Virus record (IMG/VR): IMGVR_UViG_3300037504_000500
Location: 1 to 21,229 of that record
Origin: a virus
Strand: one strand, 5' to 3'
Length of the DNA stretch: 21,229 nucleotides
The position numbers and the translations under genes are program-made. This document shows positions 2,042 to 16,380 of the stretch, piece after piece. Numbering within the stretch: position 1 is the stretch's first letter; the number at the start of each line of letters is the position of its first letter. The notes below the pieces were generated by a model, which saw only the letters and a program-made list of their open reading frames with translations, searched no databases and was not told the DNA's origin.

Positions 2042-2653
2042 ATGAAATCGAAAGTAGCGCTGCTATCTGCTGGTCCGTCACTGACTAAAATGCTACCGAT
2101 TTATACTGCGGTAGGTCCGTTCGATTATACGATAGCGATCAATCGAGCGTTGTGGTGCCCGTGGGTTCGTAACCGTGGGGTTGAGGCGTTCTGTGCGCTG
2201 GACAGGCAGACGCTGCAGTGGTTGACGTTCAAGAAACCTGCGGTGCTCGATAGAGATAGCGTACGTGAATGCTTTATAGTGAATGAACCCGTGCGTGCTG
2301 AACTGGAAAGTACCGGATTTATTCATGACGACGGGGTTACGGGGCTGGACGGACGACGAGTACTGATACCGAAAGATATCTACAAAGATGTACACCAGCC
2401 CGGTAGGTGGGGAGAGGCGTGGACGGGTAATACGTCGTTTGCTGTTGCTATCGCTTTCTGCGCTACACTCGATGTGTGCGATGTTGAGGTGCATGTGTTC
2501 GGTGCGGATTGGAAGGGAGATATGGATGCTGGTGGATTTAGCTACAATGCTAGGAATAATCCCGGTAGGTGGAAGAGTGAAGCGGAACAGTATCGTAAAT
2601 TAGAAGAATTGATGGGACGATGTAACGTAACGCTAAAGCGTTATCATCTCTAA
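2042..2653 (+). CDS. Probable DUF115/sialyltransferase-fold glycosyltransferase-like protein
   Basis: 203 residues from the ATG at 2042, which has AAAGGA about ten bases upstream; the in-frame ATG at 1994 lacks one. The N-terminus reads KSKVALLSAGPSL (residues 2-13), close to the G-x-GPSL nucleotide-sugar loop of the DUF115/MAF and bacterial sialyltransferase fold, followed by 'IAINRAL' at 31-37. A helix 'GNTSFAVAIAFC' (129-140) precedes 'VEVHVFGADW' (148-157), the other hallmark strand with a G-x-D motif. These enzymes move a sugar from an activated donor to protein or glycan. It lies directly upstream of the terminase genes, separate from the second glycosyltransferase-like gene at 6844. 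Fold assignment is moderately sure; substrate and activity are unknown. Confidence 0.55.
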   Translation: MKSKVALLSAGPSLTKMLPIYTAVGPFDYTIAINRALWCPWVRNRGVEAFCALDRQTLQWLTFKKPAVLDRDSVRECFIVNEPVRAELESTGFIHDDGVTGLDGRRVLIPKDIYKDVHQPGRWGEAWTGNTSFAVAIAFCATLDVCDVEVHVFGADWKGDMDAGGFSYNARNNPGRWKSEAEQYRKLEELMGRCNVTLKRYHL

Positions 2654-2751
2654 CGGAGGAATTAGTCCCGTTAATTGATTTGTCGAACCGTAAACTTTTC
2701 TATCGGATGTTCTCAGCTTGTATTAGGTTTTACGCACCATAATGAAGTGTC

Positions 2752-3723
2752 ATGGAACCTGAAACAGAAGTCGATATCCTCCTTAGTCCGGCACGTCACG
2801 GTAAGAAGCATCCGCACGACCGTGCTAAGTACATAAAAGCTCAGCTACGTAAACACGGTCCGTTTCGGATTGTGAAAAAACCAGGTATCATACACAGGCC
2901 TCCGAAAGTAAGAAAAGTCTTAGAAGACAGAGGAGTACCTCAGCATTACGCACCGGACGATATGGCGGATTGGCTGGTCGTACTGATGGCAGAGCACCAC
3001 GTGTGCGGCCGACGCCTGCCACGCGGCAAGGGTTTCTGCCTCCGCCCACCGACCGACGAACGGGTTTACGACCAATCCCACCGGTACTGCGCCCGGTGCT
3101 GGCCCCACGGCGGCAAGGAGCCGACCGAGAAGATGCGGAAGGCCGGCAAGAAGCAAGCAGAGCGGATCAAGAAGCAACGAGAGACCGCAGCTACTGCGAA
3201 GGAAACCGTCGAAGCGATGGAGCGCATGAAGTCGGTAGGGACCGATTCATCGAAAGCAGCACAGAACTTCAGGCACGGCCTCTACGTCGACGCTCTCCTC
3301 CCAGGTGAAGAAGATATCTACGATAACGTTGATATCACGTCCGTCGATGAAGAGATACGCATGGCTAAGATACGCCTGCGTCGACTGCAAAACGCTCAGG
3401 CTGCTATTGAGGATGCATTGCTTGAGACCGACAAGGTCAAGAAACGAGCCAAGCTTGAGACGTTAATGACGGTATTTTCACGCACCACCGAGAAGGAGTA
3501 CGCAGGCGGTACCGTGGTCGGGAGGAAAGAGAAGATCGTCAACGAGATACCCGACTACCATAACAAGATCAACAGCCTTCAGGCCGAGCTTAGCAGGATG
3601 GTTAAGCAACGGTTCGAGCAGCTGCTGGCGTCCGGTGCCGGGGAGCTCAGCCCAGAGGAGCGTGCCGAACGTGCCCGTAAGCATCTGGATAGAATTATGG
3701 GCATGCATACGTCGGAGGATTAA
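2752..3723 (+). CDS. terS: Probable terminase small subunit with N-terminal zinc cluster
   Basis: 323 residues. The start at 2752 is the only in-frame ATG before residue 71, although its ribosome site is weak. A cysteine cluster spans residues 85-119 (C85, C96, C113-x2-C116-x2-H119) and ends in PHGGKEP, the 'HGG' motif often seen in small-terminase-like phage proteins. A lysine/arginine-rich coiled coil follows (125-160). Then comes 'NFRHGLYVDALLPGEEDIYD' (about 178-197), close to the RHGLYS-x-x-LP block of these proteins, and further long helices suited to oligomerisation. The gene lies two short steps before the large terminase, as expected. The role would be recognition of phage DNA for packaging. 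It is longer than many small terminases. Confidence 0.65.
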   Translation: MEPETEVDILLSPARHGKKHPHDRAKYIKAQLRKHGPFRIVKKPGIIHRPPKVRKVLEDRGVPQHYAPDDMADWLVVLMAEHHVCGRRLPRGKGFCLRPPTDERVYDQSHRYCARCWPHGGKEPTEKMRKAGKKQAERIKKQRETAATAKETVEAMERMKSVGTDSSKAAQNFRHGLYVDALLPGEEDIYDNVDITSVDEEIRMAKIRLRRLQNAQAAIEDALLETDKVKKRAKLETLMTVFSRTTEKEYAGGTVVGRKEKIVNEIPDYHNKINSLQAELSRMVKQRFEQLLASGAGELSPEERAERARKHLDRIMGMHTSED

Positions 3724-3725
3724 CC

Positions 3726-3974
3726 GTGGTAGATCTCGCATTGGTATCGATAGATGATATGCTAGACGAGGTAGAACGTCGGTGTAAAGACGCTGTCATA
3801 GCCGTTACTCAATACGAAGAAGGTACTGATATCGGATCGCCTAGCGTGCTAACACGGATCAGTGGTAGTTTCACGATGTGTGAAGGCTTGGTACGTGTGT
3901 TGAAGCATCGTTGTGAGGATCATAGCAAAAGGTTGCTAGGTATCTACGACGATGATGACGACGAGGCCGTGTAA
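3726..3974 (+). CDS. Small acidic protein between the terminase genes
   Basis: 82 residues starting with GTG at 3726. The start is supported by GGAGGA at 3714-3719, six bases upstream, and by the preceding gene's stop two bases before it. The protein is predicted helical, with C21, C52 and C63 scattered, and ends in an aspartate run (YDDDDDEAV). Its TAA overlaps the ATG of the large terminase (TAATG), so the two are probably translationally coupled. The function is not recognised. Its position suggests a packaging accessory role, but this is inference. Confidence 0.7.
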   Translation: MVDLALVSIDDMLDEVERRCKDAVIAVTQYEEGTDIGSPSVLTRISGSFTMCEGLVRVLKHRCEDHSKRLLGIYDDDDDEAV

Positions 3975-5392
3975 TGGCTAGGCGTAAAAATACTCGTGCT
4001 GCTACCGTTACCCATGAAGGAGGCCTCACCGTACGATGGCGTCCTGCTGTGCTGTCTCCGATGCAGATGGGGTACCTCAATAGCACGGAGCGTATGAATG
4101 TGGTTGTCGCTGGACGACGCTCGTTCAAAACCGAAGGAGCCAAGCGTAGGCTCGTACGTGCAGCCATGACCTTCACTCAGTACAATGACGGTAGATTTTA
4201 CGCGTGCGCCCCGACCCATCAGCAGGCTAAGGACATCTTCTGGGAGGACATCAAAGCACTCATCCCTGACGACATGCTGATTGGACGTAGAACCGATTCG
4301 ATATCTGAGAGCGATCTAACGGTTCACCTATGGAACAATGCGGTAATCAAGGTAGCGGGGCTGGACCGACCACAACGCATTGAAGGTAAGGACTGGGACG
4401 GTGGGGTCATATCAGAGTACGGCGACGTAAAAAAGGACGTACTACCGCTACACATCCGTCCCATGATGACGCGTGGTGGATGGATCGATATCGAAGGGGT
4501 GCCCGAAGGCCGAAACCATTACTACGAGCTGGCCGATGAGGTCAAGCACGGGCACCGACCGAACGCAGCGCACCATCACTGGACGACAGAAGAGGTGTTG
4601 CATCTATGGCTAGGTGAAGAGGCAGCAGAAACCGAGCTGGCAGAAGCCAAGCGAAGCCTCAATGCACTCGAGTATCGACAGGAGTACCTCGCCGACTTCG
4701 TCAGCTTCGAAGGCATCGCGTACTACGCCTACGACGAAACCCTCAACATACCTCCTCCAGGGTTCCGCGTTAGATACCTTGACAGCGCTCCGTTGATCCT
4801 TTGTTTTGACTTCAACCGCACCCCTGGTGTCTGCTTGGTATGTCAGGAGCAGCACGCAGTACGGCATTCATGGGTGAAGCAGCCTAACCTCAGTAAAGAC
4901 GGCATGCTAACGTGCGCTATTGATGAAGTATTCATTGAACGTGGATCCAATACCCGTAGGGTATGTGAAACCATCATGGAACGATGGGCTGGTTTGCATG
5001 AAGGCGAAGTGATGGTCTACGGTGACGCAGCAGGTGGGAACAAGACCAGCCAGGGCCTTGACGGTAGCGACTGGGATATCGTTTTTGCCATGCTGAAGAA
5101 AGGTTTCAAAGGGAGAGTACGTGACCGTGTCGCTAAATCTAATCCAGCCGTCAGAGCTCGTTTGAACTCCGTCAATTACAGGCTTGTTGCGGCCGACGGA
5201 TCAGTAGGTACCGTTATTGATCCTAACTGTAAGAGATTCATACGGGATCTCGAAGGTGTGGAAGCCGACGAACGAGGCGATATCGTCAAAGACAAGGACT
5301 CCATGCTAACGCATATATCGGACGGATTCGGATACTATGTAGCGGAACGCTTCGGGTCCGGGTATAGCGTAGCTTCATTCCAGCGTTCGTAG
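3974..5392 (+). CDS. terL: Terminase large subunit (packaging ATPase and nuclease)
   Basis: 472 residues, the expected size. The N-terminal ATPase has 'VVVAGRRSFKTEGAKR' at 43-58, a Walker A variant with K52/T53. The motif near 143-150 (DGGVISEYG) sits where Walker B and its catalytic glutamate are expected, with E148 as candidate. The C-terminal RNase H-like nuclease has 'LILCFDFNRTPG' (D279), 'VMVYGDAAGGNKTSQ' (D351) and 'LTHISDGFGYYV' (D450), the three acidic metal ligands of this domain. The protein powers DNA translocation through the portal and cuts the concatemer. It starts within the stop of the small gene before it. Most similar in pattern to Terminase_6/6C-type large subunits. Confidence 0.93.
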   Translation: MARRKNTRAATVTHEGGLTVRWRPAVLSPMQMGYLNSTERMNVVVAGRRSFKTEGAKRRLVRAAMTFTQYNDGRFYACAPTHQQAKDIFWEDIKALIPDDMLIGRRTDSISESDLTVHLWNNAVIKVAGLDRPQRIEGKDWDGGVISEYGDVKKDVLPLHIRPMMTRGGWIDIEGVPEGRNHYYELADEVKHGHRPNAAHHHWTTEEVLHLWLGEEAAETELAEAKRSLNALEYRQEYLADFVSFEGIAYYAYDETLNIPPPGFRVRYLDSAPLILCFDFNRTPGVCLVCQEQHAVRHSWVKQPNLSKDGMLTCAIDEVFIERGSNTRRVCETIMERWAGLHEGEVMVYGDAAGGNKTSQGLDGSDWDIVFAMLKKGFKGRVRDRVAKSNPAVRARLNSVNYRLVAADGSVGTVIDPNCKRFIRDLEGVEADERGDIVKDKDSMLTHISDGFGYYVAERFGSGYSVASFQRS

Positions 5393-5414
5393 TAAAACGT
5401 ACATCGCAGCTTAG

Positions 5415-5458
5415 GTACTATACCGTGCGTGCTTTACCGGTACCGATCGGCATAGTAC
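5415..5458 (+). repeat. Inverted repeat in the gap after terL
   Basis: GTACTAT at 5415-5421 is mirrored by ATAGTAC at 5452-5458, with the eight-base palindrome CGGTACCG (5438-5445) in the loop. It occupies most of the 85-base gap before the next gene and is not followed by a T-run. It could be a protein-binding site or a weak RNA structure. Function unproven. Confidence 0.35.
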
Positions 5459-5477
5459 ACCGGTCAGGAGATTTCAC

Positions 5478-5816
5478 ATGAGTAATAATGTACGTGAGTA
5501 CGGGCGATCGATACTGGAGGCTGACCACCCCGTCGGCGCCACCACCTTCTGGGTAATCGAAATTCAGCTCCAAGGCGATCTGAAATACATATCCGTCCTC
5601 CAGGATGAAGATGGAGTGAAAGACGTCGGTGAAATACTGACGGCTAAGGAAGAACTGGTTACGTTGCATGGGTTCAGCTTTGATCCGGACGGATGGTTCG
5701 TGATGAATCCGGTAACTCATTTCTTCCGTAAGGAGTCGATAGTACGTATTACGTGCTACCCTACCATGCGTCATGTGACGTACGAGATGCCTGGTAGCGA
5801 GAACGCTCCGTCATGA
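5478..5816 (+). CDS. Hypothetical protein downstream of terL
   Basis: 112 residues from ATG at 5478, with AGGAG at 5466-5470. It looks like a small soluble, mainly beta protein: 'FWVIEIQLQGDLKYISVL' near residues 24-41, and alternating hydrophobic residues through 'VTLHGFSFDPDGWFVMNPVTHFF'. Neither a signal peptide nor metal ligands are evident. Its stop overlaps the next start in an ATGA junction, and it begins a coupled group of four genes reaching 6812. Function not recognised. Confidence 0.7.
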   Translation: MSNNVREYGRSILEADHPVGATTFWVIEIQLQGDLKYISVLQDEDGVKDVGEILTAKEELVTLHGFSFDPDGWFVMNPVTHFFRKESIVRITCYPTMRHVTYEMPGSENAPS

Positions 5817-6043
5817 TACCTGTCAGGGTACGTTCGATAGAGAGGAAACGTCGTCACGCGGAGTGCCGTGACTGCGGACGATCCATCGAACGTAACGAGT
5901 CATGCGTAGAGATCAGTATTTATCAGGAAGGATGTATTTTTAGTGAGTACTCCTGCTGCGTACCGTACTGGAATCTACGAGCGTGCTCGTTCCCCGTTAG
6001 TGAACCCGATATGTACGACGAGTACGAGGAGGCTCCGTTTTGA
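5813..6043 (+). CDS. Small cysteine-rich, probable zinc-binding protein
   Basis: 76 residues, start ATG at 5813 inside the preceding stop (ATGA). It contains seven cysteines. C18-x2-C21 in 'HAECRDCGRSI' forms one half of a possible zinc ribbon or knuckle; C31, C41, C48-C49 and C58 could supply the rest. The tail is acidic (DMYDEYEEAPF). The coding sequence of that tail provides the Shine-Dalgarno of the next gene. A structural or nucleic-acid-binding zinc protein is likely, but no family is recognised. Confidence 0.65.
   Translation: MIPVRVRSIERKRRHAECRDCGRSIERNESCVEISIYQEGCIFSEYSCCVPYWNLRACSFPVSEPDMYDEYEEAPF
6027..6032 (+). promoter_or_regulatory. Strong Shine-Dalgarno deciding a TTG start
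   Basis: A perfect AGGAGG lies seven bases before the TTG at 6040, within the end of the previous gene. It is the main reason for accepting a TTG start for the 61-residue protein that follows. Confidence 0.7.
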
Positions 6044-6225
6044 CTGTCCATTACCGTAAGCACGCTAACACTCCTACCCATAGCGCCTGCAATAACGCCG
6101 GAGTAATTACAACGGAGCACATAACTATGGTTACGTGTAAGCAGTGCATGAAAACACGTCGTTATAAGCAGAATAAACGTGAGTTGATAGCTTCCCTTGA
6201 GAGCCGAGAGGTAGAACAGATATGA
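6040..6225 (+). CDS. Small zinc-ribbon-like protein (TTG start)
   Basis: 61 residues. It starts at TTG 6040, overlapping the preceding TGA by three bases and preceded by AGGAGG at 6027-6032. The pattern 'THSACNNAG' (H14, C17) then 'ITMVTCKQCMKTRR' (C33-x2-C36) matches small zinc-ribbon proteins common in phages, in which a C-G-x-x pair is followed by TT and then VTC-x-x-C. The C-terminal part is a short charged helix. Its stop overlaps the next gene's start (ATGA). Partner and role are unknown. Confidence 0.7.
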   Translation: MTVHYRKHANTPTHSACNNAGVITTEHITMVTCKQCMKTRRYKQNKRELIASLESREVEQI

Positions 6226-6812
6226 TACAACGAATTCTACTCGATATGGATGGAGTTCTGTCCGATTTTGTCGGTGCGGTGCTGGATCTGCACTCGATGC
6301 TCGGCTACGATATCGTCGATACTGTAGACGTTACCAGCAGCCTGGAAGAAAGCCTCGAAATAACCGTTGAGGAGATGTGGCGTAATATCGGTAATGTCAA
6401 GTACTTCTGGAGGGATCTCAAGCTTACTCGCTACGCTCATGATATCTATTGGAGGGCATGCGCTGTGGTCGGTACGGATTCCGTATTCATCAGTACTAGC
6501 CCATCTGAGTGCCCGGCCTGTGCGAGTGATAAATTCGAGTGGTGCAAACGCCATCTAGACGTCCCTCATCGTAATATCATGGTAGGTTCGTCAAAGCACT
6601 TGATGGCCAACCCTAACCACCTGCTTATTGACGATACCGAAAGAAATATCGAACGGTTCGAAGCGGAAGGGGGTAAGGGTTTGTTGTACCCGGCTCCGTG
6701 GAATAGGCGTAGAAATGAGTACCAGACTTATACAATAGCAGACATCGAAGCAGACCTTGTATCTGCTATCGACGAGGGTACTGCGAATGTACCTAAGGTG
6801 TCGCGTACTTAG
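6222..6812 (+). CDS. HAD-superfamily phosphatase, 5'(3')-nucleotidase-like
   Basis: 196 residues. All four HAD motifs are visible: 'LLDMDGVLSDF' (D8 nucleophile, D10 acid/base), 'FISTSP' (S91/T92, motif II), K125 in 'GSSKHLM' (motif III) and 'HLLIDDTERNIERF' (D137/D138, motif IV). The insert after motif I is helical, as in the NT5C deoxyribonucleotidase group, and the ending 'GGKGLLYPAPWN' is typical of phage members. Family members remove phosphate from nucleotides or small phosphosugars. Here it could adjust the nucleotide pool or serve the neighbouring sugar-transfer gene. Start overlaps the preceding stop (ATGA). Family is sure; substrate is not. Confidence 0.82.
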   Translation: MIQRILLDMDGVLSDFVGAVLDLHSMLGYDIVDTVDVTSSLEESLEITVEEMWRNIGNVKYFWRDLKLTRYAHDIYWRACAVVGTDSVFISTSPSECPACASDKFEWCKRHLDVPHRNIMVGSSKHLMANPNHLLIDDTERNIERFEAEGGKGLLYPAPWNRRRNEYQTYTIADIEADLVSAIDEGTANVPKVSRT

Positions 6813-6843
6813 TACGGCATACTGATCGCAGTAGGAGATAGAA

Positions 6844-7881
6844 ATGCGCATAGCAGTAGTGACATTTGACGCTCGTGATAGTAATATCAATGGAGGGTAC
6901 GTTTTCGGTCCTCGTTACTTCGCGGACCATCTTGTAAACGAAGGTCATGAGGTTGATGCTATCTCCATAGTAACCAAGCATAAGATGCCGGAGGCTGACG
7001 ATAGCGCAGCAGCGTTATTCAAACAGGTACGGCTGAAAGATTGGTACGCGGACCGGTACGACTTCGTAGTCGTAGGATACCCTATGAGCGCAGGCATGCG
7101 TAAGAGTGATAGGCTGTCCGGTAAGTTTCTTCGAAGCCTGGAGCGTACGCCGTACTGCGTACTTGTTCAGGACGAGCATGAGCTTGGCGAGTCCAACGTA
7201 GTTGACAATGTAGGGGAGCTGATGGCAGACGCCAAGTTCGTCATCTACATCGCCGACGAACTGATCGATGCGTGGCAAAGCAAATTCCTGTATACCAATA
7301 CGTCGTACGTCATGCCTATGTTCCCTGCGAAACCGTCATCGCACGGGATGAAACCTAACGGTATAGGGTTAGGGTACGTAGGACGTATCGTATCGCGTAA
7401 GAAGATACGTCAGTTCCTTCAGGTAGCGGATCAATTTGCACCAGCAGGTATCCACGGCATCCTATGCGACGGACCTTTCAAGGTATGGTGCCTCAAGCAG
7501 AAGTTATTCAACGACCTGTACCAAGGACCTAATGGAACCGACCTCAGCGTCATCGCTCAGTACCGTTTCCTGTGGTGCTGCGTAGTCCTTGAACGTGGAG
7601 CCGCATTCTCTCCCAGGGTGGAACTGGCTCCTATCAACGCATTAGCTCACCGTACTATTCCGATACTTGTAAAGCAGTCAACTCCGAAGTGCATCCACAG
7701 GATCGTGCCTTGCGTTGACTGGAGTATCGTAGGTTCACGCTCGACTTCGGAAAAAGCCAAGGCGCACCACATCAAACGCGTTATTGAAATGACACCGGTA
7801 GTCGATTGTCAAGAAGTCATCGATGCGATCTATGATGAAATGTTCAATACGCAGTTCACACGCGTTATTCGTGCGTTCTGA
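6844..7881 (+). CDS. GT-B-fold glycosyltransferase-like protein
   Basis: 345 residues from ATG at 6844 with AGGAG at 6833-6837. The N-terminus 'MRIAVVTFDARDSNINGGY' has the strand plus G-G loop of GT-B sugar transferases, followed by 'FADHLVNEGHEVDAISIV', the usual helix and second strand. The second Rossmann-like half opens at 'GIGLGYVGRIVSRKKIRQFL' (about 173-192), the common start of the donor-binding domain. 'FSPRVELAPINALAHRTIPILV' (255-276) occupies the place of the E-rich donor loop but lacks a clear E-x7-E. The protein probably transfers a sugar to a virion protein, DNA or host glycan. It lies between packaging genes, away from any lipopolysaccharide cluster. Activity could be lost or altered, given the imperfect motif. 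Confidence 0.62.
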   Translation: MRIAVVTFDARDSNINGGYVFGPRYFADHLVNEGHEVDAISIVTKHKMPEADDSAAALFKQVRLKDWYADRYDFVVVGYPMSAGMRKSDRLSGKFLRSLERTPYCVLVQDEHELGESNVVDNVGELMADAKFVIYIADELIDAWQSKFLYTNTSYVMPMFPAKPSSHGMKPNGIGLGYVGRIVSRKKIRQFLQVADQFAPAGIHGILCDGPFKVWCLKQKLFNDLYQGPNGTDLSVIAQYRFLWCCVVLERGAAFSPRVELAPINALAHRTIPILVKQSTPKCIHRIVPCVDWSIVGSRSTSEKAKAHHIKRVIEMTPVVDCQEVIDAIYDEMFNTQFTRVIRAF

Positions 7882-7910
7882 AGTAAGTGCATAAATCCTT
7901 CGTTACCTAA

Positions 7911-7941
7911 GTATGTAGCTAGGCTTGTCCTAGCTGCTTAC
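7911..7941 (+). other. Strong hairpin between genes, no T-run
   Basis: Arms 7911-7923 and 7929-7941 pair over 13 positions, with one mismatch and one G-U, around the five-base loop CTTGT; the core AGCTAGG/CCTAGCT is perfect. It lies 29 bases after the glycosyltransferase-like stop and 33 bases before the next gene. No T-tract follows, so it is not a standard intrinsic terminator. An RNA processing or stability element, or a DNA-binding palindrome, are alternatives. Confidence 0.55.
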
Positions 7942-7974
7942 ATTGTTAGAGACAGGGTAAACGTACCTACCATC

Positions 7975-8601
7975 ATGACTGGTATGGTACACCTACGATT
8001 ACTTCTACTGGTACTGCTGCTGGTGACGACGGGGTGCAATACACGATCACCGGGTAAGGCGGAATCTCGGAAGACGGTAGTTGATACGTCCGAATCCACC
8101 GAGGCATCAACCATTGAAGGAGTTGGAACGGTTGCTCCTGGGACGAAGGTGGAAATTACTACCACGTACGCCCAGCAACCTAACCCTCCGGATACTACAG
8201 CCACCGCAAATATCGACGATAAAAACGCTACGTCTAGTACCGGTGATGCTGGTCAGTGGTCAGAAACCCTGGCTCAGCTCAGTCCGTTGATATGGATCGG
8301 TGCTGCATGTATCGTAGCCGGTGTTATTATTCTGGCCATTACGATCAAGCGTAGAGGGATGGGAGGATTTGTGGGGTCCTTACCAATCTGGCTTGGTCCT
8401 GCTATTTCAGGTACCGGCGTCGGTTTCATATTCCTGCCTAGGTTTGTGGAACTGGCTGCCGGTCCTTTGGTATCTATCGCTTTAGTTTCTATTGTCACCC
8501 TGCTAATCCTCGGACTGTGGGTGGCATACCGTAATCGTTTGAAGATAGAGAAGAAAACCGGTTACGATATGCCTTTCACGAAAAAAGGAATAGGGGTTTA
8601 G
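7975..8601 (+). CDS. Lipoprotein-like protein with three membrane spans
   Basis: 208 residues. The N-terminus is a hydrophobic signal-like segment (LRLLLLVLLLVTTGC, residues 7-21) ending at C21. The residues before the cysteine (T-T-G) are a loose rather than a perfect lipobox. Residues 22-100 are a threonine/serine-rich hydrophilic stretch, then three hydrophobic segments follow at about 104-124, 132-154 and 161-184, and a basic tail. A lipid-anchored or cleaved N-terminus joined to polytopic segments is unusual. The ribosome site is weak; ATG 7984 is an alternative start. The next gene is also membrane-anchored, so the two may act together, for example in lysis or at the host envelope. Function unknown. 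Confidence 0.65.
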   Translation: MTGMVHLRLLLLVLLLVTTGCNTRSPGKAESRKTVVDTSESTEASTIEGVGTVAPGTKVEITTTYAQQPNPPDTTATANIDDKNATSSTGDAGQWSETLAQLSPLIWIGAACIVAGVIILAITIKRRGMGGFVGSLPIWLGPAISGTGVGFIFLPRFVELAAGPLVSIALVSIVTLLILGLWVAYRNRLKIEKKTGYDMPFTKKGIGV

Positions 8602-8635
8602 CACGCCTCGTAAAACCCGGAGCAGGTACTGAACC

Positions 8636-9055
8636 ATGATGACATTATTGAAACTCGTAACGGGTGTAGGCACAGCTGCTGCGGGAGTAGCGGCACCGGT
8701 AGCACAAGCCTCACAAGATCCTACCCTCACCGTCAGTCTAGGTACCGTTCTAACCTCTGTCGGTATGATATGCGTAGGTCTCGGCTTCGTAATTAGGACA
8801 GTATGGAGCGCAGCTTCTGAACGCAGCTCTGTACTGCAGATCCAGAAATCGATGGCCGTCGAAATGCAGACGCTACATATAACGCTGAATAAGCATATGG
8901 ATGACGGTAATGAGTACTGGCGTCGAGACGACGCCCGTAAGGACCTGATCGAACAACGTCTAGCGCGATTGGAAGCCAAGCTAGAAGACGTCGGTAGCAA
9001 TACGTACAAAGCTCTCTCCAGGAAGGACGAACAAAATGGCAATGGCAACCGGTAG
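8636..9055 (+). CDS. Membrane-anchored coiled-coil protein (holin or spanin-like)
   Basis: 139 residues, from tandem ATGs at 8636 and 8639. Residues 1-26 are a weakly hydrophobic, alanine-rich segment ending in PVAQAS, possibly a signal sequence. A clear membrane helix spans about 31-57 (LTVSLGTVLTSVGMICVGLGFVIRTVW). Residues 60-120 form a charged coiled coil (SSVLQIQKSMAVEMQTL..., LIEQRLARLEAKLEDV). One membrane helix plus a coiled coil occurs in inner-membrane spanins and in some holin-like or XhlA-like proteins, but no lysin gene is visible here. The last 20 bases overlap the portal gene and carry its ribosome site. Function is open. Confidence 0.65.
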   Translation: MMTLLKLVTGVGTAAAGVAAPVAQASQDPTLTVSLGTVLTSVGMICVGLGFVIRTVWSAASERSSVLQIQKSMAVEMQTLHITLNKHMDDGNEYWRRDDARKDLIEQRLARLEAKLEDVGSNTYKALSRKDEQNGNGNR

Positions 9056-10508
9056 TAAGGATAAGGTTGATTACGTAACTAAGCAGGTAGAAGTGCTACG
9101 TAGTCGCTGGAATCTCCCTGAAACACTGCTCGGTGGTACTAAAGCCATGAGGGCTGCCGGGGAGAAGTACCTTCCTAAGGAAGACAAAGAACCTCACGAC
9201 GCGTACACCGTACGATTGAATCGTTCTTTCCTGTATAACGCGTACGGTGACACGCTTACGAAAACGGTGGCGAAACCGTTTCAGAAACCAATTGACGTGC
9301 AGAATTTACCGGAGTCTTTGGAGTACCTGTTGAATGACGTAGATACCAACGGGACTGACCTAACCAATTTCGGGAAGTCGTTATTCCGTGATATGCTTCA
9401 CTTCGGTATCTGCTACGTAATGGTCGACTACACACGAATCCCTCAGAATGAACGAGGAGAACGTCTAGCTACGATCGCTGAAGAAAAGGCGTCCGGAGCA
9501 CGCGTCGTAATGGAGCGTATCACTCCTACGGATATCCTTGGGGTGAGGCACGACGATTCAGGAGAACTCACGCAGGTACGTATCAAAGAGGTTCGTGTTG
9601 AACCTGACGGGTTGTACGGTGAGCAGGAAGTTCACTACGTGCGGGTGTATGAAAAACTCGATAATGGACGAATTGCTTGGGCGAAGTACCGGAAGCCTGA
9701 GGATCAGGATAAATTTATTCTAACCGATGACCGCGGTGTAATGATCGGTACGTCTCGTATCCCACTAATTAGTATGCAAGCATCTCCTGATACCATATGC
9801 CCTGTTTACGAAAGACTCGCTGAGGTTAATCTCGCCCATTGGCAGAGTGAATCCGATCAGCGTAATATCCTACGCGTAGCTCGGTTCGCTATACTATTCT
9901 TCAAAGGCCTGACGAAGGAGGAGGCCGAAGAAGACATCAAGATCGGACCATTCAATAGTTTCACATCGAGCAGTGATGAAGCGGATGGTAAGTACATTGA
10001 GCATAGCGGCAGCGCGATCCAGGCAGGTGAACGTGACATCACCAAGCTTGAAGCACGGATGGAAGCGTTGGGTATGCAGCCATTCGTGGAACGTTCAGCC
10101 GACTCCACAGCAACCGGTAAAAAGATCGACGAGGGGCGAGGACAGGCCTTGATCCTGGAGTGGGTGCGTGCGCTCGAGCTCGCTCTTTACGAAGCATTCA
10201 GTATCGTTTCGGAGTGGACCAGGGTAGAACTCCCTGAGGATCTTCTGATCAATGTCTACAGCGATTTCGAGATACTGGTAAATCGTGGCGGGGACGTAGA
10301 GTTCCTGCTGAAGTGCCTGGTTTCCGGTAAGATGACTCTCGAAACCTTCTGGGCTGAAGTAGCACGTCGAGGTTTGATGTCTGAAACCTTCGACCCTGAG
10401 GTTGAGGCTCGGTCCGTACGTGATACCCTCGATCCTGGTACTATCGGTTTCGAGGACGAGGACGAGGGCGAGGGCGAGGGCGAGGAAGAGGACGACGAAG
10501 ACATGTAA
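9036..10508 (+). CDS. Portal protein, DUF4055 type
   Basis: 490 residues, typical for a portal. The start at 9036 is supported by AGGAAGG at 9020-9026. The N-terminal 'AAGEKYLPKED...YTVRLNRSFLYNAYGDTLTKTV' and the central 'VNLAHWQSESDQRNILRVARFAILFF' (about 269-294) are characteristic of the DUF4055 family, which occupies the portal position in many phages. Twelve copies would form the ring at the capsid vertex through which DNA passes. The C-terminus ends in an extreme acidic tail of D, E and G (about 471-490), encoded by a GAGGAC/GAGGGC hexamer-like repeat at about 10453-10504. The upstream gene overlaps it by 20 bases. Confidence 0.88.
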   Translation: MAMATGSKDKVDYVTKQVEVLRSRWNLPETLLGGTKAMRAAGEKYLPKEDKEPHDAYTVRLNRSFLYNAYGDTLTKTVAKPFQKPIDVQNLPESLEYLLNDVDTNGTDLTNFGKSLFRDMLHFGICYVMVDYTRIPQNERGERLATIAEEKASGARVVMERITPTDILGVRHDDSGELTQVRIKEVRVEPDGLYGEQEVHYVRVYEKLDNGRIAWAKYRKPEDQDKFILTDDRGVMIGTSRIPLISMQASPDTICPVYERLAEVNLAHWQSESDQRNILRVARFAILFFKGLTKEEAEEDIKIGPFNSFTSSSDEADGKYIEHSGSAIQAGERDITKLEARMEALGMQPFVERSADSTATGKKIDEGRGQALILEWVRALELALYEAFSIVSEWTRVELPEDLLINVYSDFEILVNRGGDVEFLLKCLVSGKMTLETFWAEVARRGLMSETFDPEVEARSVRDTLDPGTIGFEDEDEGEGEGEEEDDEDM

Positions 10509-10526
10509 CCTCTAGGAAGGGATGGC

Positions 10527-11087
10527 ATGGACTACGAGAAAACCTACCGTAAATTGTACTTAGATCACGGGTACATGCTTCGAAGTGATCGTGAAGAGCT
10601 GTTCGAGTTCTGCCTCCCTCTGCTAGAAAAAGAGAAGCCGTCTACGGTGCTCGACTTCGGGTGCGGCAGAGGTACATTCCTAGACTGGATCATCCAGCAT
10701 TCGTGGTGCGAACGGGCAGCCGGGTTGGACATATCTGATATCCAGGTACCTTCTAGCGTGCCATGGACATTCTGCAAATGCCCGACGTGGTGCTCTCCTT
10801 ATAGCGATAAAGAGTTCGAATGGGCTACTTCTTTCGACGTACTTGAGCACCTCACCGGATCGGAGATACTTGCTACGCTAGAGGAAATGCGTAGGGTATC
10901 CGGAAGTGGGTTGATCGGTATGGTTTACGCTGGTCCGGATATCTACCGATGCCCGTTGACCGGAGCCAATCTACATAGAACGGTGATGGATAAAAATGAA
11001 TGGGCTACGATCCTTGGTCATTACGGAGCAATCGAAGTGCTTGACGCTCCAGGAAAACGTACGCCTTTCTGCTTGCGATGGGATTGA
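10527..11087 (+). CDS. Class I SAM-dependent methyltransferase
   Basis: 186 residues with AGGAAGGGA upstream of ATG 10527. Motif I 'VLDFGCGRGTF' (41-51) binds SAM. D68 in 'AAGLDIS' is placed to hold the SAM ribose. 'FDVLEHL' (103-109) is the post-II/IV motif of the Methyltransf_11/25-like group. The later 'GANLHRTVMDKNEWATIL' segment resembles small-molecule or glycan methyltransferases rather than DNA methyltransferases, which would show D/N-PP-Y. It lies between portal and head-morphogenesis genes, 18 bases after one and 3 bases before the other. A role in modifying sugars or proteins on the virion fits the neighbouring glycosyltransferase-like genes, but the substrate is unknown. Confidence 0.8.
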   Translation: MDYEKTYRKLYLDHGYMLRSDREELFEFCLPLLEKEKPSTVLDFGCGRGTFLDWIIQHSWCERAAGLDISDIQVPSSVPWTFCKCPTWCSPYSDKEFEWATSFDVLEHLTGSEILATLEEMRRVSGSGLIGMVYAGPDIYRCPLTGANLHRTVMDKNEWATILGHYGAIEVLDAPGKRTPFCLRWD

Positions 11088-11090
11088 CGG

Positions 11091-13385
11091 ATGGCTGTAA
11101 ACGATGATCTATTCGAGGCGGTGGTACGCCACGCGCATTACGTAGAAAGATGGAAGACTCATGAAGTCAATCAGATGGTCGGCTTCCTCAACGATGAAGT
11201 ATTTCCACGTACTACGGAGCTGATTCAAGATCGTTTGAATTCACTATCTCCGATGGACGCTCGTAAGGCTGCGCAGCTACAGCGATTGAATCTCGCCTTA
11301 CGTGAGCAATTTCGTACGGACTACGGACCGTCACGTAACGAGGTCAGGAAGAACGTACTAGACTTTGCTGAGTACGAAGCTGAATGGATCAAAGGCACTA
11401 TTCAGAAAGCTACACCGATCAGTGTCGATCTCGCTTCGCCGTCGACTGAAGCGTTACGTGCTATCCTGTCTCCTAACGCAATAGAAGGTGATGTCCTCGG
11501 GAAATCATGGCAGAAGTGGTGGGGAGCTTTCGAGAATAACACGAGTACTAGGATAATGCAGCAGATACGCTTGGGGGTGGCTGAAGGACGTTCCACTCCG
11601 GAGATAGTACGTACGCTTGTTGGTACACGTGCCAATAACTACACCGATGGTATCTACCAAGCCTCGAGGCGTGAAGCTTCCATGATAGTTCGCACCGCAA
11701 CGAACGACGCCAGCGCTCGGGCGCGTGAGATGACGTACAAGCAGAACGACGACGTTATCAGCGGAGTCGAGTACGTGGCAACCCTGGACGGACGTACCAC
11801 CATCCGGTGCGCTTCGCTAGACGGTCGTATCTTCCGTATCGGTGACGGTCCACGTCCACCGCAGCATCCGAACTGTCGTAGCACGACAGTACCGGTCACT
11901 AAATCGTGGAAGGAGCTCGGCATCCCGTTGAAGGATACCAACGCAACGACACGAGCTTCGATGAATGGACAGGTCTCAGCTAAAATGTCTTATTCGGAGT
12001 GGTTGAAAAAACAACCAACGGATATTCAGAACAGAGTACTAGGGAAGAGCCGCGCTCGATTGTTCCGTAAAGGGGAGGTACGACTTGACCGCTTCCAGGA
12101 TAACGGGAAAACCCTTACTCTGGACGAATTGAAACGCATGGATAACCTGGATCAGAAACGTGTCTTTCCTGGGGAGAAGACCGGCGTGTCTACTCCGTCG
12201 CCGTCTCGTACGTCTACGAGAAGTACTACTCCTGCGCCTAAGGTTGCGGATCCACCGAGTACAGCAAGCCGTCCTCCTCGTAAAAAGGCTGCACCCGTGA
12301 AGAAAATGACGCGACTAGATAGGAAAATTGAGAACAATAGAAAAAAGCTTAACGAGGTAGAAGCCAAGCTAGCAACGGACCCTCGTAACGAGGACCTATT
12401 GATCAAACGGCGCAGGTACGCGGTACGGCTGGAAGAAGCTTTGAAGGAGAAGTCCACGCTTCCGACCGGTACCGTTACGTCGACGACTACCTCGACTAGA
12501 ACGTCTGCTAAACTTCGTACCGGACGGCAGGTTCGTGAAGACATCGAAAAGAAATTGAATGAAACCTCCAGCGCATCTTCCGTAGGAGCTTCTAACGTAA
12601 CCGGTGACGTAGTTGATACGTTACGTAAAATCGAAGACGACATCGCTAATGTAGAGTTCAGGTATAGTAACGGTAAAATGAATACGATGGTCTACATGGA
12701 TCGTATCGGCGAACTTCAAGACGCTAAACGTATGCTGCTACGTAGAGCTGGAAAGAGTACCTCACAATCCGCTCTCGGTACCACGAGATTGCCGGTAGGT
12801 AGCAAAGAAAGTATACGAGCAGTCCATGATGAATTGATGCGAGACGTAACCCCGTACCGTAAGCTTGGTATAAAAACAGGTAGCGCCACTTCGGCGTCAG
12901 TACGTGCTAAAGCTGAGGAGGCTCAAGACTTTTTACGTCGTGTGACGGACTCGTCTAGCACGGGTGGGAAAAACCTTAGGGTTAAAGTGGTTAGTGAACG
13001 TGGTAGGGCATTCGCTAGGTACAATGACCGTAGCGTACACGTCGATCCGACAAAGGGAACCAGGACGTACGTTCACGAGATAGCTCATCTGCTTGAAGAT
13101 AATTCTCCTGGGTGGCGTGCTAAGGTCGCGAAATTCTTCAGAAAACGTACTAAGGGTGATACGTTACGTACGATGCGTGAGCTAACAGGTAACAGAGCTT
13201 ACCGTGACACCGAAGTAGGGTACCGCGATGAGTTCATAAATCCGTACATGGGTAAAGTAAAGCAAGATGTGGCACGCGAGGTAGTATCCATGGGTACTGA
13301 ACTGCTGTACGCCGATCCGATAGGTTTCATGAAGAAGGACCCTGAAATGTTCGAATTCATCATCGATTTATTGAGAGGTGTGTAG
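11091..13385 (+). CDS. Mu-F/SPP1 gp7-like head protein fused to a C-terminal metallopeptidase
   Basis: 764 residues, far longer than a plain Mu-F/gp7 protein. Residues about 145-275 carry the head-morphogenesis domain: 'RIMQQIRLGVAEGRSTPEIV', 'EASMIVRTATNDASARA', 'EYVATLDGRTTIRCASLDG', ending 'PPQHPNCRSTTVPV'. A Ser/Thr/Pro-rich linker with charged coiled coil covers about 360-570. The C-terminal ~130 residues contain 'YVHEIAHLLEDN' with an HExxH zinc site (H662, E663, H666) and 'REVVSMGTELL' (E730, probable third ligand), as in gluzincin-type domains attached to some phage head proteins. The first part aids capsid assembly at the portal. The peptidase could process head proteins or act after ejection. 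It begins 3 bases after the methyltransferase stop. Confidence 0.85.
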   Translation: MAVNDDLFEAVVRHAHYVERWKTHEVNQMVGFLNDEVFPRTTELIQDRLNSLSPMDARKAAQLQRLNLALREQFRTDYGPSRNEVRKNVLDFAEYEAEWIKGTIQKATPISVDLASPSTEALRAILSPNAIEGDVLGKSWQKWWGAFENNTSTRIMQQIRLGVAEGRSTPEIVRTLVGTRANNYTDGIYQASRREASMIVRTATNDASARAREMTYKQNDDVISGVEYVATLDGRTTIRCASLDGRIFRIGDGPRPPQHPNCRSTTVPVTKSWKELGIPLKDTNATTRASMNGQVSAKMSYSEWLKKQPTDIQNRVLGKSRARLFRKGEVRLDRFQDNGKTLTLDELKRMDNLDQKRVFPGEKTGVSTPSPSRTSTRSTTPAPKVADPPSTASRPPRKKAAPVKKMTRLDRKIENNRKKLNEVEAKLATDPRNEDLLIKRRRYAVRLEEALKEKSTLPTGTVTSTTTSTRTSAKLRTGRQVREDIEKKLNETSSASSVGASNVTGDVVDTLRKIEDDIANVEFRYSNGKMNTMVYMDRIGELQDAKRMLLRRAGKSTSQSALGTTRLPVGSKESIRAVHDELMRDVTPYRKLGIKTGSATSASVRAKAEEAQDFLRRVTDSSSTGGKNLRVKVVSERGRAFARYNDRSVHVDPTKGTRTYVHEIAHLLEDNSPGWRAKVAKFFRKRTKGDTLRTMRELTGNRAYRDTEVGYRDEFINPYMGKVKQDVAREVVSMGTELLYADPIGFMKKDPEMFEFIIDLLRGV

Positions 13386-13816: not shown

Positions 13817-14608
13817 ATGGCACTGCCTATCATCATCAAGAGCTTGGATGAAATCGCCGAGCCGCTCCGCGAGCACTACGTCGAGAAGGATGGGAAATTC
13901 ATGCTCGACGCCACCCCGAGTAACGGACTCGCTATCGAGGATGTTACTGGGTTGAAAAATTCCCTGGCTGCCGCACGTGGCGAACGGGATAAGCTCAACG
14001 AGCAGATTCGTGGTTTCAAGGATATCGATCCTACGAAAGCGCGGGACGCGCTGAAGAAGGTCGAGGAGATGCAGAACTGGGATCCGGATAAGCAGGTCGA
14101 AGAAAAGATCAAGGCTAAGCTGGAGCAGATGAAGTCTCTGCATCAACAGGAACTCGAGAAGGTCAGCGGTGAGTCTAAGGCTCTCACGGGGCAGCTCGAG
14201 AAACTCATGGTGGACGCCGCAGCTTCTGAGGCTCTTCAGAAGGAAGGCGGTAACATCAAGATCCTGATGCCTCATATCCGCAGCCAAGTTCGCATGCGCC
14301 GTACCGAAGACGGGCAGATGATCGCTGAGGTAGTCGATGAAAGTGGTAACCCTCGAGTTGGTGATGCGCAGGGCAATCCGATGACCATCCCTCAACTGGT
14401 CGACGAATTGCGGCAATCCGATGACTACGCTCCGGCCTTTAGCGGGTCCGGATCTTCCGGTTCGGGTTCGAAACCTTCGAACTCACACCAAAAACCTCCC
14501 ACCGGCAATGGTGGTGGTGTGCTTCAGATCAAGTCATCCGATCAGGACAGCATCAACGAGAACTGGCAGAAAATTGCCTCCGGCGAAGCCGAAGTCGTTC
14601 CGGACTAG
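13817..14608 (+). CDS. Capsid scaffolding protein
   Basis: 263 residues immediately before the major capsid gene, the usual scaffold position. After an N-terminal block there is a long charged coiled coil (about 45-150: 'SLAAARGERDKLNEQIRGF', 'KIKAKLEQMKSLHQQELEKV'). It is followed by 'ILMPHIRSQVRMRRTEDGQM' and 'MTIPQLVDELRQSDDYAPAF', a segment widely shared by phage scaffolds. A Gly/Ser-rich linker (about 209-240) leads to a short helical tail (INENWQKIASGE), where scaffolds usually contact coat protein. The protein directs procapsid assembly and then leaves. A ribosome site AAGGGA precedes ATG 13817. Codon use changes here to a more GC-ending pattern shared with the capsid gene. Confidence 0.85.
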   Translation: MALPIIIKSLDEIAEPLREHYVEKDGKFMLDATPSNGLAIEDVTGLKNSLAAARGERDKLNEQIRGFKDIDPTKARDALKKVEEMQNWDPDKQVEEKIKAKLEQMKSLHQQELEKVSGESKALTGQLEKLMVDAAASEALQKEGGNIKILMPHIRSQVRMRRTEDGQMIAEVVDESGNPRVGDAQGNPMTIPQLVDELRQSDDYAPAFSGSGSSGSGSKPSNSHQKPPTGNGGGVLQIKSSDQDSINENWQKIASGEAEVVPD

Positions 14609-14660: not shown

Positions 14661-15821
14661 ATGTCCAATACTCTCACCGCCATCATCCCGAAGATCCTTG
14701 CTCGGGGTTTGAACGTTCTGCGCGAGCAGTGCGTCATGCCCCGACTGGTGAACGGTGACTACAGCAGCGACGCTGCTCAAAAGGGTGCCACCATCGACGT
14801 GCCGGTGCCCACCGCGATGACCGCTACCGAGGTCTCGCCGTCCTCCACTCCGAAGACCGCCAGTGACCACACGATCACTACCGTGCAGGTTCCGTTGGAT
14901 AATTGGTACAGCACCAATTTCCATCTGACCGACAAGGACATGGTGCAGATCGATCGGAACCAGTCGTTCTTCCCAATGCAGGCCATGGAGGCCGTTCGTG
15001 CGCTGGCCAACAAGGTCAACATCTCCCTCCAGGATCTGTACATCGAGACTCCGTACTACTATGGTACGGCTGGCAGCACCCCGTTCAACGATACCGACAA
15101 GGTGAAGAGCGCAACCGGTGCTCGTAAGATTCTGAACCAGAATCTGGCTCCTCGTGTGGATCGGCGTGGTGTTCTGAACTATGACGCTGAGGCGAATGCC
15201 CTGGCGCTGAGTGAGTTCAGCGATGCCGAGAAGATCATGTCACCGACCGTGAAGATGGAAGGTGAAATCGGTCGGAAGTTCGGTATCGACTGGGTGGCTG
15301 ATGACCACGTTCGCTCTCACACGACCGGTGCCGTTGCTGCCACCGCTGGTATCGCTATCGATTACGGTAGTGGCTACTCTGCTGGTGTTTCCACCATCCA
15401 TCTGGACGGCTTCACCTCGGACAATCTGCCTAACGTTGGCGATGTGTTCAAGATCACCGGTGATAGTCAGCCGTACGTCGTGACCGGTGTCGGTTCTAGC
15501 TCCGGTACCGAAACCGATATCACGATCTACCCGGCCTTGGCTGCTGCCGCAGCTGACGACGCTGCGGTCACTTTCGTGGATAGCCATGTCGCGAATATGG
15601 TCTTCCACCGTGACGCCATCGCCTTCGCCACTCGTCCGTTGATCGCGTCCACTCAGGACCTGGCTCTCGGCTCCCGCATTATGAGTATGCAGGATCCCGA
15701 CACCGGCCTGACCCTCCGCCTCGAGGTTTCCCGTCAGAACAAGCAGGTTCTGTGGGAATTCGACATCCTCTGGGGTTGCAAGATGGTTCGTCCTCAGCTG
15801 GCTTGCCGCCTCCTCGGCTAG
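14661..15821 (+). CDS. Major capsid protein, P22 coat-like (HK97 fold)
   Basis: 386 residues. The N-terminus 'TAIIPKILARGLNVLREQCVM' with 'GATIDVPVP', and the C-terminal 'FHRDAIAFATRPL' plus 'DPDTGLTLRLEVSRQNKQ' and 'FDILWGCKMVRPQLACRL', are hallmark blocks of the P22 gp5-like coat family. The middle (about 225-310) is a beta-rich insert with Gly/Ser/Thr repeats. Hundreds of copies would form the shell with the scaffold made just upstream. In the whole frame I see no GTA and no ATA codon, whereas neighbouring genes use both often, consistent with very high expression. A structured leader precedes it and a strong hairpin follows it. Confidence 0.92.
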   Translation: MSNTLTAIIPKILARGLNVLREQCVMPRLVNGDYSSDAAQKGATIDVPVPTAMTATEVSPSSTPKTASDHTITTVQVPLDNWYSTNFHLTDKDMVQIDRNQSFFPMQAMEAVRALANKVNISLQDLYIETPYYYGTAGSTPFNDTDKVKSATGARKILNQNLAPRVDRRGVLNYDAEANALALSEFSDAEKIMSPTVKMEGEIGRKFGIDWVADDHVRSHTTGAVAATAGIAIDYGSGYSAGVSTIHLDGFTSDNLPNVGDVFKITGDSQPYVVTGVGSSSGTETDITIYPALAAAAADDAAVTFVDSHVANMVFHRDAIAFATRPLIASTQDLALGSRIMSMQDPDTGLTLRLEVSRQNKQVLWEFDILWGCKMVRPQLACRLLG

Positions 15822-15891: not shown

Positions 15892-16380
15892 ATGAGGACG
15901 CTGATGTTCACAGCTATTATTCTGGAAGCTCTGGATACCCGTCGGCTGGTAGATCCGGAGGTTTCCGTTGAACTATGCAAAACTGATTTGTGGCGTGAGA
16001 TGAGTGCGGATGAGGTGCTGTCCGTCGACGGCTGGACCGCATTCAGGCGTCGCATCACCAACCTCACAGGGCACGCCGTACCAGAAACAGGGCCGGAGGG
16101 GCCGGCACCTAAGGTGGAGGCCGCTACAGGCCGTTCTACGGCTCCTAGCAAGGCTCCCACCACCCCCACCGCACCACCTGAAACCCCTGCACCGCCTGTA
16201 GACGACGATCTGACCGCCCTGCCCGACGTGGGGCCGGCTGCGGAAGCGTCCTTGAGGCGGCTCGGACTCGGCTCCTACGCCCTGCTGGCCGAAGCCGAGC
16301 CGACGCAGGTCGCCAAGGTACGTGGCATCTCACTGGACGGTGCCGAGAAGATCATCAAGAAAGCGAAAACCCTGCGATAG
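15892..16380 (+). CDS. Helix-hairpin-helix protein downstream of capsid gene
   Basis: 162 residues with GGAGG at 15882-15886. Three parts are visible: an N-terminal helical block (1-60) containing 'DGWTAFRRRITNLTG'; a Pro/Ala/Thr-rich flexible linker (about 63-103); and a C-terminal helix-hairpin-helix domain (about 107-161) with 'LTALPDVGPAAEASLRRLGL' and 'VAKVRGISLDGAEKIIKKAK', containing two G-x-G/G-I-like hairpins. HhH domains bind the DNA backbone without sequence preference. In the head-to-tail joining region it could touch packaged DNA or act as a connector-associated protein. The annotated role is inference; the HhH assignment is fairly sure. Confidence 0.72.
   Translation: MRTLMFTAIILEALDTRRLVDPEVSVELCKTDLWREMSADEVLSVDGWTAFRRRITNLTGHAVPETGPEGPAPKVEAATGRSTAPSKAPTTPTAPPETPAPPVDDDLTALPDVGPAAEASLRRLGLGSYALLAEAEPTQVAKVRGISLDGAEKIIKKAKTLR

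Follow-up and report, generated by a model that had tools for sequence, protein, structure and literature searches.

Glycosylated coats have, to our knowledge, been reported in only a few phages, mostly those of actinobacteria. Coat glycosylation reported for mycobacteriophage Che8 is a precedent for phage coat glycans: as cited in PMC11256854, its major capsid protein carries covalent glycans, phage-encoded glycosyltransferases are proposed to add them, and recognition of phages by antibodies is reported to be altered by coat glycans. Another described system comprises the Maf flagellin glycosyltransferases, which place nonulosonic acids on flagellin and whose central domain, PF01973 (MptE-like, formerly DUF115/Maf_flag10), resembles the sialyltransferase Cst-II (PMC11339370); Aeromonas and Shewanella flagellins carry both glycosylation and methylation (PMC9290775). 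Here these systems are compared with four genes lying among the packaging and head genes of a 21,229-base IMG/VR virus record (IMGVR_UViG_3300037504_000500; the whole stretch analysed, hereafter the window), which is a tailed-phage fragment and an incomplete genome: a DUF115-like gene, a HAD-family gene, a gene for a GT-B-like glycosyltransferase and a gene for an S-adenosylmethionine (SAM) methyltransferase. An earlier note on this DNA had taken the four as one set that could build a methylated sugar on capsid or tail, or modify DNA. Its observation is confirmed with corrections and its interpretation partly supported: DUF115-like and methyltransferase genes are paired or fused in the head block of unrelated phages, as would be expected of a virion-glycan module, and a single four-gene pathway is not borne out. 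We put at about one half the probability that the window's DUF115-like and methyltransferase genes represent, in split form, a virion-decoration module that recurs among phages.

The window's DUF115-like protein shares with Maf the domain family and, if it acts as proposed, the placing of a sugar on a self-assembling structural protein. The two differ in that phage DUF115-like proteins are single-domain or fused to a methyltransferase or glycosyltransferase, that the window copy lies under the Pfam cut-off, and that the substrate of the phage protein is putative. Che8 differs from the phage of the window in being an actinophage; in the related Maravista the glycosyltransferase genes are reported to lie near the 3' genome end, and a DUF115-methyltransferase pair is not reported there.

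DUF115-like and methyltransferase genes beside phage coat genes

In phage MW202621 the genes for the coat, a methyltransferase and a DUF115-like protein are directly successive. Two loci found by profile-guided scan (L105 and L106) have the order scaffold, methyltransferase, sulfotransferase (PF13469, 9.6e-9), DUF115-like and coat; MuF (5e-66), scaffold and connector genes are common to them and the window. Moreover, the two parts can be joined in one protein: a single DUF115-methyltransferase fusion stands after the coat gene in four loci (L107, L128, L132 and L134), in the first of which a decoration-like gene comes between, and a triple fusion of GT8-like, DUF115 and methyltransferase parts stands after it in three others (L109-L111), the GT8-like part being assigned by reading the sequence. 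A scan of genome contigs added further fusions and, in Lysobacter, Pseudoxanthomonas, Variovorax and others, prophage-like loci of this kind, among them those of Pseudoxanthomonas sacheonensis DSM 19373 and Variovorax J22R193 with the order coat, methyltransferase, DUF115-like. In all, the arrangement spans siphovirus-type and SU10-like phages as well as prophages and phage contigs assigned by binning to several bacterial phyla. As a gene arrangement, the DUF115-methyltransferase theme of virion decoration is genuine and turns up repeatedly in phages. Our search found no literature on phage DUF115/MptE-like genes with coat genes, most subscription papers lying outside its reach.

The association was counted over all 58 members of the methyltransferase family besides that of the window, with ≤5 kb taken as near head genes and a DUF115 partner required within ≤2 kb or in the same protein. 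All 15 methyltransferases near head genes have a DUF115-like partner, against 6 of the 43 elsewhere; the head-linked cases come to about 12 distinct ones once near-copies are removed. The Fisher p-value is about 2e-9, or about 1e-7 without near-copies (with deduplicated margins estimated by hand), and both values overstate the case because the counts are non-independent and the seeds of the genome scan were themselves coat-linked. The fusions are independent of any counting and are stronger evidence than adjacency.

Two observations on the same loci may be added. The open reading frames of the triple fusions (L109, 4334-6400; L110, 4209-6269; L111, 4390-6450) belong to SU10-like phages, in which they directly follow the genes for coat and decoration proteins. 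In a relative by terminase large subunit (TerL), two DUF115-like genes, with glycosyltransferase-like genes and a sulfotransferase-like gene between them, lie between portal and MuF (L033, 6250-12384), forming a larger glycan-type island in the head block.

The DUF115-like and methyltransferase genes of the window

The late block of the window runs from terminase small subunit (TerS)-like and TerL genes through DUF4055 portal, MuF-like, scaffold-like and P22-type coat genes to connector genes, tail tube and tape measure. The genes that matter here are as follows.

2042-2653, + strand: DUF115/MptE-like (Maf_flag10-type) putative sugar transferase (motifs and phage DUF115 profile)
2752-3723, + strand: terminase small subunit-like (phrog_1889, 8.9e-8)
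3974-5392, + strand: terminase large subunit (phrog_2, 7e-28; 40% identity to MW202621 TerL)
6222-6812, + strand: HAD 5'(3')-deoxyribonucleotidase, NT5C family (PF06941, 1.3e-13; phrog_2643, 2.9e-21; 3bwv, 5e-6)
6844-7881, + strand: GT-B-like glycosyltransferase (tblastn 2e-3, shuffle z 16-18, GR-x4-K and PRxELA motifs)
7975-8601, + strand: lipoprotein-like membrane protein with lipobox VTTGC, outside the four-gene set (sequence)
8636-9055, + strand: small membrane/coiled-coil protein, outside the four-gene set (phrog_462, 6.8e-4)
9036-10508, + strand: portal protein, DUF4055 (PF13264, 1.4e-31)
10527-11087, + strand: class I SAM methyltransferase of the phage DVMEHIP / LHxTVxDxEWW family (PF13489, 5.7e-11; family profile, 6e-22)
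11091-13385, + strand: MuF-like head morphogenesis protein (PF04233, 3.6e-12)
13817-14608, + strand: scaffold-like protein (weak PF06810; homologues in 34 related loci)
14661-15821, + strand: P22-type major coat protein (PF11651, 5.9e-31)

The four genes under study are intact, all on the + strand, with mostly good ribosome-binding sites, and they lie among the TerS, TerL, portal and MuF genes, so the earlier description of them as embedded in the morphogenesis block holds. They are beyond chance, being intact open reading frames with family-level matches. Sigma-70-like promoters are not enriched here (10 against an expected 13.5).

The first gene had been described as DUF115/sialyltransferase-like and ahead of the terminases; the position and the similarity to DUF115 profiles stand, but the protein misses the Pfam cut-off for PF01973 (12.3 against 34.6 bits, E=0.14). 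Its reading frame opens at 1994, and the ATG at 2042, with AAAGGAA upstream, is taken as the start. The GPSL, IAIN, W-TGNTS and FGAD motifs are present. Against a profile that was built from the DUF115-like proteins of phages, 29 in number, and left out the window, the protein scores 11.6 bits over its full length, colinearly and above all 5,134 decoys, although the corresponding E-value of about 0.3 at Z=20000 makes the match a distant one; a smaller earlier test against six phage DUF115-like proteins gave no significance. AlphaFold models predicted without an alignment were unusable for this protein (predicted local distance difference test score, pLDDT, 34) and for the GT-B-like protein (pLDDT 41), and the Foldseek output for the latter was not used. 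Judged by motifs and profile, the protein is a distant member of the DUF115/MptE-like family.

The methyltransferase gene lies between portal and MuF genes, as the earlier note had it. Its product matches PF13489 (42.9 bits, cut-off 27), has the glycine-rich motif I LDFGCGRGT, and matches the profile of the phage methyltransferase family, built without the window, with 6e-22 over profile columns 4-167. Its nearest kin are found in other settings: the one in L103 in a nucleotide-sugar/glycosyltransferase cluster with a 3,5-epimerase/4-reductase (9.5e-32), which counts in favour of a glycan scheme, the one in L104 beside genes that are fibre-like by reading of the sequence.

The arrangement of DUF115 and methyltransferase genes favours a Maf-like glycosylation plus methylation of a virion protein. 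In such a scheme the DUF115-like protein would attach a sugar to a protein of the virion, the likeliest acceptor being the coat protein or some other head protein, and the methyltransferase would methylate that sugar or the same virion protein. The GT-B-like protein may provide or lengthen the glycan, or it may act with the nucleotidase in a separate function, the modification of nucleotides or DNA. Expression would be late, along with the head genes, and the modification made as particles assemble. The genes are identified at the family level, and the adjacency or fusion of DUF115 and methyltransferase genes is conserved beside the coat genes of other phages; from these we infer the sugar donor and acceptor, the order of steps, the time of expression and an equal function of the window's distant versions and the coat-linked ones, and to carry the function over from the coat-linked cases to the window is a step of the same kind.

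Several points weigh against this scheme for the window. In the tree the window methyltransferase groups with L103 and L104 on a long branch, outside the coat-linked, DUF115-paired clades (98/91), and the DUF115-like protein is distantly related to the rest of its family and encoded ahead of the terminases, 7.9 kb from the methyltransferase gene. Because of this tree position and this distance, the window is a distant, split case. Furthermore, members of the methyltransferase family also occur beside QueE, QueD, QueC and FolE genes (L098) and where no phage head genes are recognised; no sugar-nucleotide synthesis gene was found in the 21 kb fragment; and the kin of the GT-B-like protein point toward DNA modification. 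The adjacency count is itself biased upward and non-independent, since the methyltransferase seeds were coat-linked and the head references came partly from the same loci. The locus with the Que genes came from the methyltransferase search of the relatives' records, where the match in G021 consists of two members. It belongs to a TerL relative (L098, 1878-8576; IMGVR 3300022226_000012) and has the two methyltransferase-family genes, then QueE, QueD, QueC, FolE and a possible DpdA-like gene, that is, a 7-deazaguanine-type cluster plus two extra methyltransferases.

More broadly, we offer as a tentative proposal, plausible though not yet favoured, that phages widely carry an undescribed system for building a methylated virion glycan, sulfated in L105 and L106, by means of a Maf-like DUF115 glycosyltransferase together with its own small methyltransferase. 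The two would be neighbours, or a single DUF115-methyltransferase or GT-DUF115-methyltransferase protein, made beside the coat gene, and the version in the window would be split and diverged. If so, a DUF115-methyltransferase pair beside coat genes would allow virion glycosylation to be predicted from sequence, and the prediction would be directly testable in cultured hosts, as Pseudoxanthomonas and Variovorax carry the pair in apparent prophages. Coat glycans could affect phage stability or adsorption.

The nucleotidase and the GT-B-like protein

The earlier note placed a GT-B-like gene and a HAD phosphatase between terminase and portal. The position is right; the HAD gene comes first, with 31 bp between it and the GT-B-like gene, and two membrane-protein genes (7975-8601 and 8636-9055) lie in the same gap. 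The HAD protein scores 51.7 bits with PF06941, twice the cut-off of 24.8, its nearest solved structure is 3bwv (5e-6), and the catalytic motifs DxD, S/T, K and DD were found by reading the sequence aligned to 3bwv (LLDMDGVL, ISTS, SSKH and LIDD). It is, by this family match, an NT5C-type 5'(3')-deoxyribonucleotidase, and the idea of a phosphatase acting on sugars was dropped on account of the PF06941 match.

In GT-B glycosyltransferases such as the GT4-type enzymes, an arginine/lysine pair and an acidic residue are expected at the donor site. The second protein has such residues: R181, K186 and E260 are invariant across five family members, and the GR-x4-K and PRxELA motifs are present. No Pfam or PDB match was obtained for the members tested, the window protein included; tblastn (2e-3) found three phage relatives, two of which have shuffle z values of 16-18. 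The family comprises proteins of Vibrio phages 1.031.O (gp22) and 150E35-1, Listeria phage LIS04 and Bacillus phage SP-15 (gp153, 23% identity to the window protein). On the family profile GT-B references rank near the top among decoys, and the T4 DNA alpha-glucosyltransferase (AGT) scores 34.5, above the maximum of 25.2 for 400 decoys. The match to T4 AGT is colinear and includes GR-x4-K and a GTIPV-like segment, but identity is 15% and the pairwise comparison is not significant (z 0.5). The label GT-B-like, which we use here, is based on motifs and on rank in the profile comparison; we do not place the protein in the AGT family, because the AGTs of JD18 and Cronus score lower (26.1 and 22.6) and the pairwise tests fail; T4 AGT as its family was kept as suggestive only.

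These two genes give its main weight to another explanation, that the GT-B-like protein and the nucleotidase, perhaps with all four proteins, serve DNA hypermodification: the nucleotidase would remove a competing deoxynucleoside monophosphate (dNMP), the glycosyltransferase would glycosylate the modified base, and the methyltransferase would cap it. We regard this as rather unlikely, yet it is the main rival, chiefly for the GT-B-nucleotidase pair, which may act on nucleotides or DNA. It has to be kept in view because the only detectable phage relatives of the GT-B-like protein lie in nucleotide- or DNA-modification clusters. The LIS04 homologue lies in the SP-15/LIS04 thymidine-hypermodification cluster, and gp153 lies inside the SP-15 cluster of genes 146-155, for which a genome paper proposes a role in decorating dihydroxypentyluracil (DHPU) with glucose and phosphoglucuronate (PMC5977210). 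The neighbours in the Vibrio phages include a YfbR-type 5'-deoxynucleotidase (6.7e-21), a nucleoside deoxyribosyltransferase, MazG, a cytidylyltransferase and a DXD glycosyltransferase; the nucleotidase 31 bp ahead of the window gene is not homologous to the YfbR-type enzyme. The AGT score on the family profile and the presence of QueC in 4 of the 29 records searched, that of Sphingomonas phage MMDA13 among them, point the same way. However, SP-15 also encodes a UDP-glucose dehydrogenase, a uridylyltransferase and a hydroxymethyldeoxyuridine synthase, none of which was seen in the window; nor were hydroxymethylase, thymidylate-synthase-like or Que genes seen in its 21 kb, and the QueC search of the window record was empty. 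In addition, the AGT link fails pairwise and is weaker for the two other AGTs, the GT-B-nucleotidase pair is in the late packaging block, away from replication genes, and DUF115 and methyltransferase genes are linked to coat genes. As a further observation, the gp153 homologue of LIS04 (OQ999172.1; L006, 4001-5104) is an open reading frame without annotation.

The four genes among related phages

No DNA-level near relative of the window was found among 50,697 GenBank phages. Among named phages, those closest to it in TerL and portal protein are the uncultured Manatee Spring siphoviruses MW202621 and MW202657 (34-40% identity), the former having the nearest GenBank TerL by score; next come Pseudomonas, Sphingomonas, Xanthomonas and Variovorax phages, with Pelagibacter and similar phages also present. 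Actinophages are a minority: 12 of the 165 TerL matches are to Microbacterium phages. By these matches the kin of the phage infect mostly proteobacteria and not actinobacteria, and the earlier appeal to actinobacteriophages loses its ground.

No close homologue of any of the four proteins was found in 80 IMG/VR loci with related TerL, and a search of the complete records of 28 relatives gave no match to the GT family, NT5C or the window-type DUF115. Scans made directly for close kin were empty as well, those of viral contigs for DUF115-like, GT-B-like and methyltransferase proteins and that of genome contigs for the GT-B-like one. The gap between TerL and portal, about 3.6 kb in the window, is 0-6 kb in relatives; their packaging and head intervals hold assorted genes, such as those for hexapeptide transferases, a MocA-type oxidoreductase, a sulfotransferase and a putative glycosyltransferase, and upstream of TerL lie DNA methylases and TET/JBP and TAGT genes. 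The exact four-gene set is unique to the window contig, since the proteins lack close homologues in the relatives' loci and the contents of the gap vary. A conserved operon of four genes was ruled out, as the set does not recur, and the single pathway of the earlier note falls with the absence of the GT family and NT5C from the 28 records and the place of the glycosyltransferase kin in modification clusters. That note had asked whether the genes co-occur in relatives or are independent and readily lost: the four-gene set does not hold together, and the DUF115-methyltransferase pair does. The four genes are probably two pairs, DUF115 with methyltransferase and nucleotidase with GT-B, and not one pathway.

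The varying size and contents of the gap, and the 0 of 28 records, would also be expected if these were unrelated accessory genes (morons) that had gathered where the packaging block tolerates insertions and that make no shared product, the glycosyltransferase, for example, changing host surface glycans and the nucleotidase salvaging the nucleotide pool. We consider this improbable: DUF115-methyltransferase pairing or fusion beside coat genes occurs in about 12 distinct loci, and L105/L106, L033 and MW202621 have comparable sugar, sulfo and methyl sets in the same block.

Two minor features of the window remain. The membrane proteins encoded at 7975-9055, just ahead of the portal gene, are possibly lysis (spanin/holin-like) proteins, in an unusual position. 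Among the connector genes, after the coat gene, the product of 15892-16380 has a C-terminal helix-hairpin-helix (PF14520, 8.7e-8) behind a proline-rich linker.

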